The position numbers were made by a program, and so were the translations under genes. From positions 1 to 49,793 of the forward strand of contig DATMZR010000032.1 of NCBI GenBank assembly GCA_035573435.1: a stretch of DNA of 49,793 nucleotides. The letters run 5' to 3'. The notes under the pieces are model-generated. The model was not told the origin of the DNA and did not search any database. It saw nothing but the letters and a program-made list of their open reading frames with translations. How positions within the stretch are numbered: position 1 is the first letter of the stretch; each line of letters opens with the position of its first letter. Positions 46,613-49,793 of this stretch are shown in pieces. Source of the stretch: Solirubrobacterales bacterium. GTDB lineage: Bacteria > Actinomycetota > Thermoleophilia > Solirubrobacterales > 70-9.

Positions 46613-46631
46613 GCGAGATACTGCGCGGACG
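46613..46631 (+). promoter_or_regulatory. Conserved GCGAGATACT box before SnoaL paralogue 1
   Basis: GCGAGATACTGCGCGG followed by ACG-ATG. GATACT (46617-46622) fits a -10 hexamer 9 bases before the ATG, which would give a nearly leaderless transcript; there is no ribosome binding site. The same block recurs before paralogues 2, 6 and the one at the window edge. Confidence 0.5.
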
Positions 46632-47033
46632 ATGTCGCGAGAAAACGTGGAGATACTCAGGCGTGCCTTGCCCGAATCCGCACCCGCGAACGTCGCCGCG
46701 CTGTTCGAGATCCTCGATGAGAGTGTGGAGTGGGACTACGTGGGAACCTTTCCAGAGGGCCTCACCACCTATCACGGTCCTGCGGAAGTACGGGAGTTCC
46801 TGGGCCAGTGGGCCGACGCATTCGATGACTTTGGCTTTGAGGCGGAGGAGACGATCGATGCAGGAGATGCCGTCCTGATCCGCCTGCATCAATGGGGACG
46901 CGGCAAGGACACCGGTGCCCAGGTTGAAAGTCGGACCTGGCAGCTATTCACCTTCCGGGACGGCAAGATCGTCCACTGCCGTGGGTATGCGACTAAGGCG
47001 GAAGCCCTCGAGGCCGCCGGGCTTTCGGAGTGA
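46632..47033 (+). CDS. SnoaL/NTF2-like protein, paralogue 1
   Basis: A 133-residue single-domain protein of the SnoaL/NTF2-like superfamily (alpha+beta cone fold with a ligand pocket). It begins MSRENVEILRR and ends EALEAAGLSE, the shared signature of this array. Middle motifs include VEWDYVGTF, YHGPAEVREFLGQW and the closing strand FTFRDGKIVHCRGYAT. Substrate or catalytic function is unknown. It stands alone before an unrelated gene; the other copies follow further downstream. Confidence 0.88.
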   Translation: MSRENVEILRRALPESAPANVAALFEILDESVEWDYVGTFPEGLTTYHGPAEVREFLGQWADAFDDFGFEAEETIDAGDAVLIRLHQWGRGKDTGAQVESRTWQLFTFRDGKIVHCRGYATKAEALEAAGLSE

Positions 47034-47073
47034 TGGACTGTTACCGGCGCCCACGGGCTGAGCCGAGGGTAAT

Positions 47074-47607
47074 GTGGGTGAAATGCGCAATCCCTTACGG
47101 CGGGCGACGGCCGCAGGCACCGAGCGAGAGTGGCATGAGTTCATGGCGATTCCGGGGGATCGGATCACGGAAATAGCCAGGCAGAGGTTGGCTGCGGAGA
47201 GGTTGGCAGGCCTCACCCTCTACGTCGTAAACGATGGAGCCGAGGGTGAGACAAGGGGAGTGTTTGTGAACGTCGACGCCGTCGAGGCGGAGATCGATGA
47301 GAGAACGACCAAGCTGCACGAAGAGCTAGCCGCGGCAGCCATCGAGCGGCATGGCGTGGGGGACTGGGATGATCCGGATTACCGAGCCCGGCTCGAGGCG
47401 GCGGCTGACGAGGACATGCAGAGCCCTGACTTCCAGGCACGCCTGCAACAGATCACGGAAGCCGCGTTCAACAACACCGACCACTGGGTGAAGGGCGGCT
47501 TCGACAACCTGCCGGACAATGACGTCACGTACTCGCTGTATCGAGTCAACCTGGCCACAGGCCGGATTGGACCTGGAAGCCTGGTTTCGTTGCCGGAGTG
47601 GGACTAG
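47074..47607 (+). CDS. Hypothetical protein interrupting the SnoaL array
   Basis: A 177-residue acidic, soluble protein with no recognisable domain, signal peptide or membrane segment. GTG at 47074 or ATG at 47083 are possible starts. The centre is helical and charged (TKLHEELAAAAIERHG). Its base and codon composition appear less extreme than its neighbours, with more A/T at third positions, which may hint at different origin. I do not recognise it. Confidence 0.6.
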   Translation: MGEMRNPLRRATAAGTEREWHEFMAIPGDRITEIARQRLAAERLAGLTLYVVNDGAEGETRGVFVNVDAVEAEIDERTTKLHEELAAAAIERHGVGDWDDPDYRARLEAAADEDMQSPDFQARLQQITEAAFNNTDHWVKGGFDNLPDNDVTYSLYRVNLATGRIGPGSLVSLPEWD

Positions 47608-47640
47608 AGCGGGCTGGCTGGGCTGACCCTGAACTGAGAA

Positions 47641-47660
47641 GCCGAGCTCGGGGGCTCGGC
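47641..47660 (+). terminator. GC-rich hairpin after the hypothetical gene
   Basis: GCCGAGC and GCTCGGC form a 7-bp stem with a 6-base loop, 34 bases past the stop of the hypothetical gene. No T-run follows, so it is only a candidate terminator. Confidence 0.45.
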
Positions 47661-47698
47661 CTCACAGGTTCACGGTAGCGTGCTGCGCACGCCAGGTC

Positions 47699-47717
47699 GC
47701 GAGATACTGCGCGGGCG
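47699..47717 (+). promoter_or_regulatory. Conserved GCGAGATACT box before SnoaL paralogue 2
   Basis: GCGAGATACTGCGCGGGCG directly precedes the ATG. GATACT at 47703-47708 is again 9 bases before the start codon, as before paralogue 1, and no ribosome binding site is present. Confidence 0.5.
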
Positions 47718-48122
47718 ATGTCCCAGGAGAACGTGGAGGTCGTGCGGCGCTGGTGGAGCGGATTCAACGAGGACGGGATGCCCCCGCTGTCCCTCTGCGA
47801 CGAACAGATCGAGATTCGCATGCCGCCGGACTTCCCCGTCCGAGGTCTCTTCCAAGGGCACGAAGGTGTTCGCCGCTGGCGTGAGCAGGTGTTCGAAGTT
47901 GCAGAGAACGCCCACGTGGAGCCGGAGAAGATCGTCGACGTGCATGACGACGGGGAAACCGTCTTGATGCTGCTTCGCGCCACGGGCACAGCCAGCTACT
48001 CTGAGATCGAGCTGGACATCGAGTGGGCGGCGATCTGGACGATTCGCGACGGGAAGCTGCTGCGTGCCCAGGGCTATCTGAACCGTGCCGAGGCGCTCGA
48101 AGCCGCCGGGCTGTCGGAGTAG
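47718..48122 (+). CDS. SnoaL/NTF2-like protein, paralogue 2
   Basis: A 134-residue member of the array: start MSQENVEVVRRWWSGF, end EALEAAGLSE. The core (FQGHEGVRRWREQVFE, ATGTASYSEIELDIEWAA) fits the SnoaL-like fold and differs strongly from its neighbours. It is the first of four tandem copies (47718-49346) separated by only three bases each, so they form an operon. The end of its coding region (CTGTCGGAGTAG) carries the GGAG used as ribosome binding site for the next copy. Confidence 0.88.
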   Translation: MSQENVEVVRRWWSGFNEDGMPPLSLCDEQIEIRMPPDFPVRGLFQGHEGVRRWREQVFEVAENAHVEPEKIVDVHDDGETVLMLLRATGTASYSEIELDIEWAAIWTIRDGKLLRAQGYLNRAEALEAAGLSE

Positions 48123-48125
48123 GCG

Positions 48126-48533
48126 ATGTCAGAGGAGAACGTGGAGGCTTTCAAGCGCGGCCTTGAGGCTGGGAACCGTGGAGACGTCGAAGGGCTGCTC
48201 GAGGAGCTCGCCCCCGAGGTGGAGTGGCACTCGGCGCTCCACGCGTTGCTGGGAGGGGAGCAGACGGTGTTCCGTGGCCACGACGGCGTCCGCGAGATGC
48301 TCCGAGACCTCAACGACGCCTTCGGCGAGATCCACATCGAGGTCTCGGAGATCCGGGATCTGGGAGACGGACTCGTCGCAATCGGCCGCACCCGCACGCG
48401 CGGCAGGGAAAGCGGCGCCGAGACCGAGACGCCCTTGGCCCTCGTGACCGAGGTCAGGGATGGCAAGACGATTTCGATTCGGGCTTTCCTCGATCACAAG
48501 CAGGCCCTCGAAGCCGCCGGGCTTTCGGAGTAG
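48126..48533 (+). CDS. SnoaL/NTF2-like protein, paralogue 3
   Basis: A 135-residue member starting MSEENVEAFKRGLEAGNRGD and ending ALEAAGLSE. The core includes PEVEWHSALH, FRGHDGVREMLRDL and a closing VRDGKTISIRAF strand. This pattern is close to typical SnoaL-like polyketide cyclase-type domains, but the array's proteins have no known substrate. Its ATG lies six bases after the GGAG at the end of paralogue 2. Confidence 0.9.
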   Translation: MSEENVEAFKRGLEAGNRGDVEGLLEELAPEVEWHSALHALLGGEQTVFRGHDGVREMLRDLNDAFGEIHIEVSEIRDLGDGLVAIGRTRTRGRESGAETETPLALVTEVRDGKTISIRAFLDHKQALEAAGLSE

Positions 48534-48536
48534 GCG

Positions 48537-48932
48537 ATGTCGCAGGAGAACGTGGAGATCGTGCGTCGATGCTATGAGGCGTTCGACCGTGGCGACCTTG
48601 ACGTTGCGTTCGAAGACTTTGCGCCAGATTTCGAGCTCGACCTGTCGCGGGCGATCGGCATCGACCGGGGTACCTACAACCTCGCCCAGTTCCGGCGGCT
48701 GACCGAGCAGTTCGCTGAGAACTGGGAGTCCGCTCGGTATGAGGCCGACGAGCTCATCGATGCCGGGGAGCATGTGGTGATGCCTTTCACGAACCGCCTG
48801 CGGGGCAGGGACGGAATCGAAGTGCAGGCTCGCGGCATCTGGTTGGGCACGATCCGCGACGGGTTGATCGTGCGGATCTGCCTCTACCAGGAGCTTCAGG
48901 AAGCCCTCGAAGCCGCCGGGCTGTCGGAGTAG
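48537..48932 (+). CDS. SnoaL/NTF2-like protein, paralogue 4
   Basis: A 131-residue member starting MSQENVEIVRRCYEAFDRGD and ending EALEAAGLSE. Core motifs are APDFELDLSRAIG, YEADELIDAGEHVVM and IRDGLIVRICLYQ. Its first 26 bases are identical to those of paralogue 5, although the cores share little at the nucleotide level. Tandem copy in the operon. Confidence 0.9.
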   Translation: MSQENVEIVRRCYEAFDRGDLDVAFEDFAPDFELDLSRAIGIDRGTYNLAQFRRLTEQFAENWESARYEADELIDAGEHVVMPFTNRLRGRDGIEVQARGIWLGTIRDGLIVRICLYQELQEALEAAGLSE

Positions 48933-48935
48933 GCG

Positions 48936-49346
48936 ATGTCGCAGGAGAACGTGGAGATCGTGCGGGGATTGCACGGGGCGTTCGCACAGGGGGACAACGA
49001 AACCCCGTTTGCGGTCTACGACCCCGAGATCGAGTGGGACATGTCCGGTTTCCCGCTTCCCGGCGAGGAGTCGGTCTATCACGGGCACGAGGGTGTTCGA
49101 CGCTACTGGCGGGCCTGGCTCGCGGCGTGGGAGTTCATCGATGCACCAATCGAGCGGTTGGTTGATGCCCGAGAGAACGTGGTCACGCTTTTCGGTCCTT
49201 CGACGGCCCGGGGCAAGAGGAGCGGCGCCGATGTCCAAATCGGTCCCTGGGCGCAGGTCTGGACATTGCGCGACGGAAGGGTGGTCCGCATGCGGATGTA
49301 TCCCGACCACGCGAATGCCCTCCAAGCCGCCGGGCTGCGTGAGTAG
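48936..49346 (+). CDS. SnoaL/NTF2-like protein, paralogue 5
   Basis: A 136-residue member starting MSQENVEIVRGLHGAF and ending ALQAAGLRE, a slightly altered tail. Core motifs are DPEIEWDMSGF, YHGHEGVRRYWRAW and LRDGRVVRMRMYPD. It is the last of the four closely spaced copies; the next gene is preceded by its own promoter-like box. Confidence 0.9.
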   Translation: MSQENVEIVRGLHGAFAQGDNETPFAVYDPEIEWDMSGFPLPGEESVYHGHEGVRRYWRAWLAAWEFIDAPIERLVDARENVVTLFGPSTARGKRSGADVQIGPWAQVWTLRDGRVVRMRMYPDHANALQAAGLRE

Positions 49347-49365
49347 CGAGATACTGCGCCGGGCG
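49347..49365 (+). promoter_or_regulatory. Conserved CGAGATACT box before SnoaL paralogue 6
   Basis: CGAGATACTGCGCCGGGCG fills the whole gap between paralogues 5 and 6. GATACT (49350-49355) is 10 bases before the ATG. Same block as before paralogues 1 and 2, with one inserted base. Confidence 0.5.
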
Positions 49366-49773
49366 ATGTCGCAGGAGAACGTGGAGATCGTCGGTCGCCT
49401 GATGGATGCTTGGAACCGCCAGGACCTCGAGGGCATCCTCGCCCTGATCGATCCTGAGGCCGAGTACGTCAATGCCCCCAATGCCGTTGAGCCGGGCACT
49501 AGGCGAGGGCACGACGCAATCGTCGTCGTAATGCGAAAGCTGTGGGAGGGCATCCCCGGCGCCCTTCAGGAGATCGACCGATTCCACGACCGGGGCGACG
49601 AGATCATCACCGAAGGGCGTCTTTCTCGGACGATGCCGGGAAGTGACGCTCGGATCAGCAACCCGCTCCTCATATCGTGGAAGTTCCGCGATGGAGCTCT
49701 CATCCGGCTCGAACAGCTCGGTGCTGGCCCGGAATTTCCCGCAGCCGTCGAAGCCGCCGGGCTGCGGGAGTAG
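49366..49773 (+). CDS. SnoaL/NTF2-like protein, paralogue 6
   Basis: A 135-residue member starting MSQENVEIVGRLMDAWNRQD and ending AAVEAAGLRE. Core motifs are LIDPEAEYVNAPN, RGHDAIVVVMRKLWEG and WKFRDGALIRLEQLG. An upstream in-frame extension runs through the end of paralogue 5 in another frame and is not part of this gene. It is followed by another promoter-like box and start codon. Confidence 0.9.
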   Translation: MSQENVEIVGRLMDAWNRQDLEGILALIDPEAEYVNAPNAVEPGTRRGHDAIVVVMRKLWEGIPGALQEIDRFHDRGDEIITEGRLSRTMPGSDARISNPLLISWKFRDGALIRLEQLGAGPEFPAAVEAAGLRE

Positions 49774-49793
49774 CGAGATACTCGCGGGCGATG
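49774..49793 (+). other. Promoter-like box and start codon of a probable seventh SnoaL-like paralogue, cut by the window edge
   Basis: CGAGATACTCGCGGGCG is followed by ATG at 49791-49793, where the window ends. The arrangement matches the boxes before paralogues 1, 2 and 6, so another copy probably starts here. Only the start codon is visible. Confidence 0.5.

Follow-up and report, generated by a model that had tools for sequence, protein, structure and literature searches.

Proposed cassette-like SnoaL_2 genes with divergent cores between near-identical DNA connectors in a Solirubrobacterales genome

Integrons are the textbook means by which bacteria keep exchangeable gene arrays. In the gonococcal pilS/pilE and Borrelia vls systems, recombining families carry short identical flanks around divergent middles and exchange them by homologous recombination. 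Here we describe a family of SnoaL-like genes located at the end of a window of 49,793 nucleotides, which is the whole of a contig (C32, positions 1-49793) of the 2.58-Mb genome of a Solirubrobacterales bacterium, an actinobacterium from soil. About 80 copies in this genome share near-identical DNA over their first ~20 and last ~30 bases, together with a short promoter. The original prediction had described six paralogues and a seventh start with near-identical ends and diverged cores; this is confirmed, and the pattern reaches far beyond the window. We consider it rather likely that these are cassette genes, in which a variable core lies between two standard DNA connectors and is exchanged by recombination between them. 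No description of such a system was found in the open-licence literature, including that on SnoaL proteins in Solirubrobacterales or Thermoleophilia and on the MSQENVE peptide.

The window end (46632-49793) holds six complete SnoaL_2 open reading frames (ORFs) and the ATG of a seventh at 49791, all on the + strand and arranged as a solo gene, an unrelated ORF, a five-gene array and the start of a further copy. All six proteins match PF12680 (SnoaL_2) with 41.9-57.5 bits (cut-off 27), and they share 28-38% identity with the reference copy. Three window copies carry the head, ATGTCGCAGGAGAACGTGG, without a mismatch, and every one of the six carries it with three mismatches at most, where 0.01 would be expected from shuffled sequence; the tail, GAAGCCGCCGGGCT, is found in all six with at most one mismatch. 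The solo gene (46632-47033; MSRENVE...EALEAAGLSE) is preceded by the box CGAGATACTGCGCGGACG (46614-46631), which abuts its ATG and bears a leaderless-type -10 element, GATACT. A 177-aa ORF (47074-47607) that matches nothing significantly in Pfam or NCBIfam parts this gene from the others, so what had been taken for a single array of six is a solo gene and an array of five. The array is headed by the box CGAGATACTGCGCGGGCG (47700-47717) and comprises gene 2 (47718-48122), gene 3 (48126-48533), gene 4 (48537-48932), gene 5 (48936-49346) and gene 6 (49366-49773). Three junction modules (48099-48146, 48510-48557 and 48909-48956) link genes 2 to 5; the first consists of the tail GAAGCCGCCGGGCTGTCGGAGTAG, a GCG and the head ATGTCAGAGGAGAACGTGGAG, and its GGAG is a possible ribosome site for the next gene. 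Genes 5 and 6 end in LRE and are followed by boxes: CGAGATACTGCGCCGGGCG (49347-49365) abuts the stop of gene 5, and CGAGATACTCGCGGGCG leads into the ATG of the seventh copy (49774-49793), which is truncated by the contig end as the array runs past it. The repeated DNA thus takes in an 18-bp box 5' of the ATG and the GCG linker, neither of which had been noted before. Overlapping assembly repeats were considered for the array contig ends and rejected, no terminal overlaps of at least 15 nt being present among those compared.

Genome-wide counts rest on searches and on 227 kb of stretches fetched around the matches. A protein search of this genome, which is 97% complete, yielded 87 family matches, from which about 76-78 full-length copies, with fragments beside them, were collected; they are scattered over the chromosome as many small arrays and solo genes. 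The upstream pattern GAGATACT-N(4-16)-ATGTC has 44 genomic matches (reversed control, 0), the exact 18-bp box occurs at 29 places, and the tail pattern gave 87 matches (control, 0). The box, abutting the ATG, precedes solo genes and array heads, and conservation sets in abruptly at the box and fades ~20-30 nt into the ORF, flanks farther upstream being mostly unrelated. Box heads account for 37 of 75 copies, with GATACT 15 nt 5' of the ATG. Since the starts of other genes in the same genome are preceded by a TANNNT -10-like peak at 11-16 nt, leaderless transcription from the box is plausible. In another 31 of the 75, the head is a junction in which the gene starts 3 nt after the preceding stop (GGAGTAG-GCG-ATG). 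The peptide end itself depends on DNA context: the ratio of LSE to LRE is 28/1 when a gene follows and 7/19 when a box or nothing follows (Fisher p 6e-8).

Several other elements were seen around the boxes. A 33-bp element, CTTTGCATGGAAAGCGACACGTTCAGCAYCGC, a candidate operator, lies just 5' of six boxes (L033, L043, L050, L051, L060 and L065), two of which head other genes by eye, an isochorismatase-like gene in L051 and a zinc-site protein in L060. A 70-140 bp upstream repeat (ACGCCGAGCCACTGGGGCCGTCC...) is shared before boxes in L053-, L059+3460, L062- and L065-, and some of these boxes lead into genes for secreted proteins rather than SnoaL. An inverted repeat around the ATG (CTGCG/CGCAG), noticed by eye in this genome, was discarded as it is broken in the sequence variants of other genomes.

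The ends are conserved as DNA, beyond protein needs and outside the gene. Among 78 copies, the Ser2 codon is TCG in 63 of 68 (27% in cores), Glu(-7) is GAA in 56 of 59 (18% in cores), Gly(-4) is GGG in 51 of 62 (26% in cores) and the stop is TAG in 68 of 78. One way to account for this is selection alone: the box would act as a shared promoter for leaderless transcription, the head as a region for initiation, GGAG as a ribosome site of the next gene and the tail as a structural helix, the paralogues arising by ordinary duplication and transposition with only their ends constrained. The position of GATACT agrees with the genome-wide TANNNT peak, GGAG-TAG-GCG-ATG is a good ribosome site, head and tail belong to the fold, and much of the end similarity is common across genera; all of these speak for selection. 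However, the bias is equally strong in solo genes without a downstream gene (GAA 9/10, GGG 12/12), and therefore the ribosome site of a next gene cannot be its sole reason. Selection alone does not readily explain three further observations described below, namely genome-specific end dialects, unrelated array neighbours and captured genes, and we regard it as the main rival, though an unlikely one.

Ends and cores have separate histories. A tree built on the cores of 134 copies from three genomes showed no grouping by genome (49 changes, 50.0 in shuffles), indicating that the cores either predate the genera or have passed from one to another. At identical residues, codon identity in the cores rises with core similarity (0.44, 0.59, 0.78), whereas that of heads and tails is about 0.71-0.92 in every similarity bin (0.71-0.86 in the well-filled bins). 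The ends are closer within a genome (0.786) than between genomes (0.739; 0 of 1000 label permutations), independently of the rest of the gene, as expected of concerted evolution. Genomes have end dialects of their own; that of MGR_bin120 includes TCT and GCCGTGGGC, and ATGTCTCAG paired with GCCGTGGGCCTG. The original prediction had proposed recombination or gene conversion through the ends, to be abandoned if the ends diverged at synonymous sites as much as the core. Synonymous sites are kept in the ends and saturated in the cores, and conservation extends into non-coding DNA; the proposal survives and is supported. A second part of it, the generation of diversity in the binding pocket, is not borne out, as core diversity is old point divergence and whole cores move without mosaics.

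Among genes with connectors, the pairs with the most similar cores (55-89% identity) have flanks at background (0.37-0.57 upstream), their homology ends at the ATG and the stop, and the head type switches between box and junction in 10 of 17 of them. The best case of relocation is the fifth gene of a G000 array (L058 8546) and a solo gene of G001 (L185), the cores of which are 89% identical. Within arrays, the stop-start spacer is 3 nt in 23 of 27 cases in G000 and in 10 of 10 in G007. Array neighbours in G000 are no more similar than all pairs (0.295 and 0.294; permutation 1142/2000); as neighbours are unrelated, tandem duplication is rejected as the source of the arrays in this genome. Beside this, L108 (2573-3491) carries a 117-bp exact repeat with a period of 825 that runs to the contig end, in which a box-gene-junction-gene unit may be tandemly duplicated.

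The connectors are also found on genes that are not SnoaL_2. A GNAT gene (L043 3998-4591) has a box, an MSQE start and a GGGCTCTCGGAGTAG-CG-ATGTCGCAGGAG end (a GLSE-stop-head tail), while its G001 orthologue (75%) has neither box and head nor tail connector. An SRPBCC gene (PF10604) sits between two junctions in L156, a metallophosphoesterase in L054 is flanked by head and tail modules, and fusions of heads to a chloride channel, and to several proteins that lack a Pfam match, occur as well. In L041, a 31-codon mini-gene retains both ends with its core almost deleted. The GNAT gene, which bears both connectors where its orthologue bears none, and the unrelated array neighbours are thus, with the dialects (TCT included) and the codon choices kept in solo genes, what stands against selection alone.

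Another explanation is that the conserved N- and C-terminal peptides are tags docking to a common partner or targeting the proteins. For the gene 4 protein, AlphaFold2 predicts an NTF2 fold, an alpha+beta barrel or cone, with a predicted local distance difference test (pLDDT) of 95.4. Its neighbours in the PDB (Foldseek) are NTF2-like proteins, TerC, SnoaL2, AclR and limonene epoxide hydrolase, and 1tuh, the Bal32a protein of a mobile gene cassette from soil, matches both by sequence (6.8e-9) and by fold. From this fold, the products are probably small-molecule-binding or -converting proteins with diverse pockets. The head begins helix 1, the last helix spans residues 120-126, and the residues after it are irregular, with confidence falling at the extreme end (pLDDT 64 for the last residue, block mean). 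A tag would agree with the near-invariance of the end peptides (M1, S2, A126, G128 and L129) and with these flexible last residues. However, most of the tail (EALEAAG) belongs to the confident C-terminal helix of the fold, so that the tail, suggested earlier to be a docking or targeting peptide, is flexible in its last residues only; the choice of LSE or LRE follows the next DNA element; and DNA conservation exceeds protein needs and reaches outside the gene. A conserved protein tag, which the original prediction had also put forward, is at best weakly supported, and we give it almost no credence.

Under the cassette reading, each unit would consist of a core, usually an NTF2/SnoaL-fold domain, placed between a 5' and a 3' connector. 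The 5' connector would be the ATG and ~20 nt, following either the leaderless promoter box (solo genes and array heads) or the stop and ribosome site of the preceding gene (interior genes); the 3' connector would be the last ~30 nt with the stop, supplying GGAG to the next gene. Recombination between connectors of 25-60 bp could then excise, insert or replace whole genes in frame, promoter, start and ribosome site being retained during the swap, and the same recombination would homogenise the connectors within a genome. RecA-type homologous exchange would be the default mechanism, since no integron integrase was found, the only tyrosine recombinases are XerC/XerD-like and the connectors show no special folding.

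A dedicated enzyme, integron-like, Xer-exploiting or a large serine recombinase, might instead recognise the connectors. The exact 3-nt junctions and gene-exact units would suit it, as would the soil cassette origin of Bal32a and the frequent location of arrays just 3' of tRNA genes; moreover, the sole large serine recombinase of G000 (L224 5667-7259, + strand, on C21) is 4.3 kb away from a solo SnoaL gene. However, no integron integrase was found in the 97% complete genome (TIGR02249 below cut-off), both of its tyrosine recombinases are XerC/XerD-like, and the connectors are no more stably folded than shuffled sequence (z between -0.51 and 0.43), hence form no attC-like hairpin. We consider such an enzyme improbable. 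Boxes or array ends lie ~50-350 bp from tRNA genes (Arg, Met, Leu, Ser, Val, His, Glu) in L042, L035, L045, L054, L055, L032 and L062, a proximity that would seem to exceed chance. In L055 (1-3001, - strand), the first of two tandem SnoaL arrays follows a complete tRNA-Val and the second a copy of the tRNA-Val 3' half (58 bp, 97% identical), as if by tRNA-side insertion or duplication.

Of 232 genomes of the order, 20 contain junctions (at most 3 mismatches), and 9 of its 54 genera are represented, the highest counts being those of G000 (40), G007 (21), G219 (11) and G157 (10). The suggestion that such families are characteristic of Thermoleophilia is supported, with few exceptions. Connector-like sequences also occur in metagenome-assembled genomes named Mycobacterium sp. 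RYN_167 (L089) and Pseudonocardiales RYN_117 (L146), through transfer or binning error. Beyond the three whole genomes, it was the end peptides that led to the copies.

Several points weigh against exchange through connectors. The difference in the ends within and between genomes is modest. In the two closest orthologue pairs the ends (0.74) are about as similar as the cores (0.78), which suits end replacement and rests on 27 codons. Neighbours in G007 are somewhat more alike than chance (41/2000), and hence some tandem duplication occurs. Discovery through end peptides biases the sample outside the three whole genomes, and with it the comparison of ends within and between genomes; every named relative is a metagenome-assembled genome. 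Lastly, no exchange event has been caught directly, as no pair of strains with different cores at the same site was available.

We tentatively put forward, as a possibility less secure than the exchange itself, an integrase-independent cassette system in which order-wide connectors (promoter-start and stop-ribosome site) let whole genes, non-homologous ones included, swap into expressed positions by recombination, so that Solirubrobacterales would hold a reshuffled set of NTF2-fold proteins. If this is true, short common ends are sufficient for cassette exchange without an integron integrase, and expression would be guaranteed, since the connector carries promoter, start and ribosome site. It would also account for the dozens of SnoaL-like genes of unknown role in these actinobacteria. 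The connectors are a simple sequence signature with which to find captured genes.

Compared with known systems, the family resembles integrons in (i) its arrays, in which unrelated genes, albeit mostly of one fold family, stand head to tail in one orientation with a short conserved boundary sequence, (ii) its gene-exact units, some of them genes from wholly different families, and (iii) its fold, as a cassette from soil is known to encode the NTF2-fold protein Bal32a (1tuh). It differs from them in that neither IntI nor an attC-like hairpin was found, the boundary holds the start codon, the first and last codons and the ribosome site, a single fold family accounts for most cores, and the many small dispersed arrays have their own promoters. 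With pilS/pilE and vls it shares short identical flanks, divergent middles and, as we infer, exchange by homologous recombination; in contrast to them, almost every copy is a complete gene with expression signals, there is no single site of expression and the cores are anciently diverged. As in the concerted evolution of rRNA operons, segments are homogenised within a genome, but here this applies to the ends alone and not to the cores. Finally, domain and fold are those of the SnoaL_2/NTF2-like family PF12680, whereas ~80 copies per 2.6 Mb with connectors conserved at the DNA level are undescribed for that family in the literature searched.
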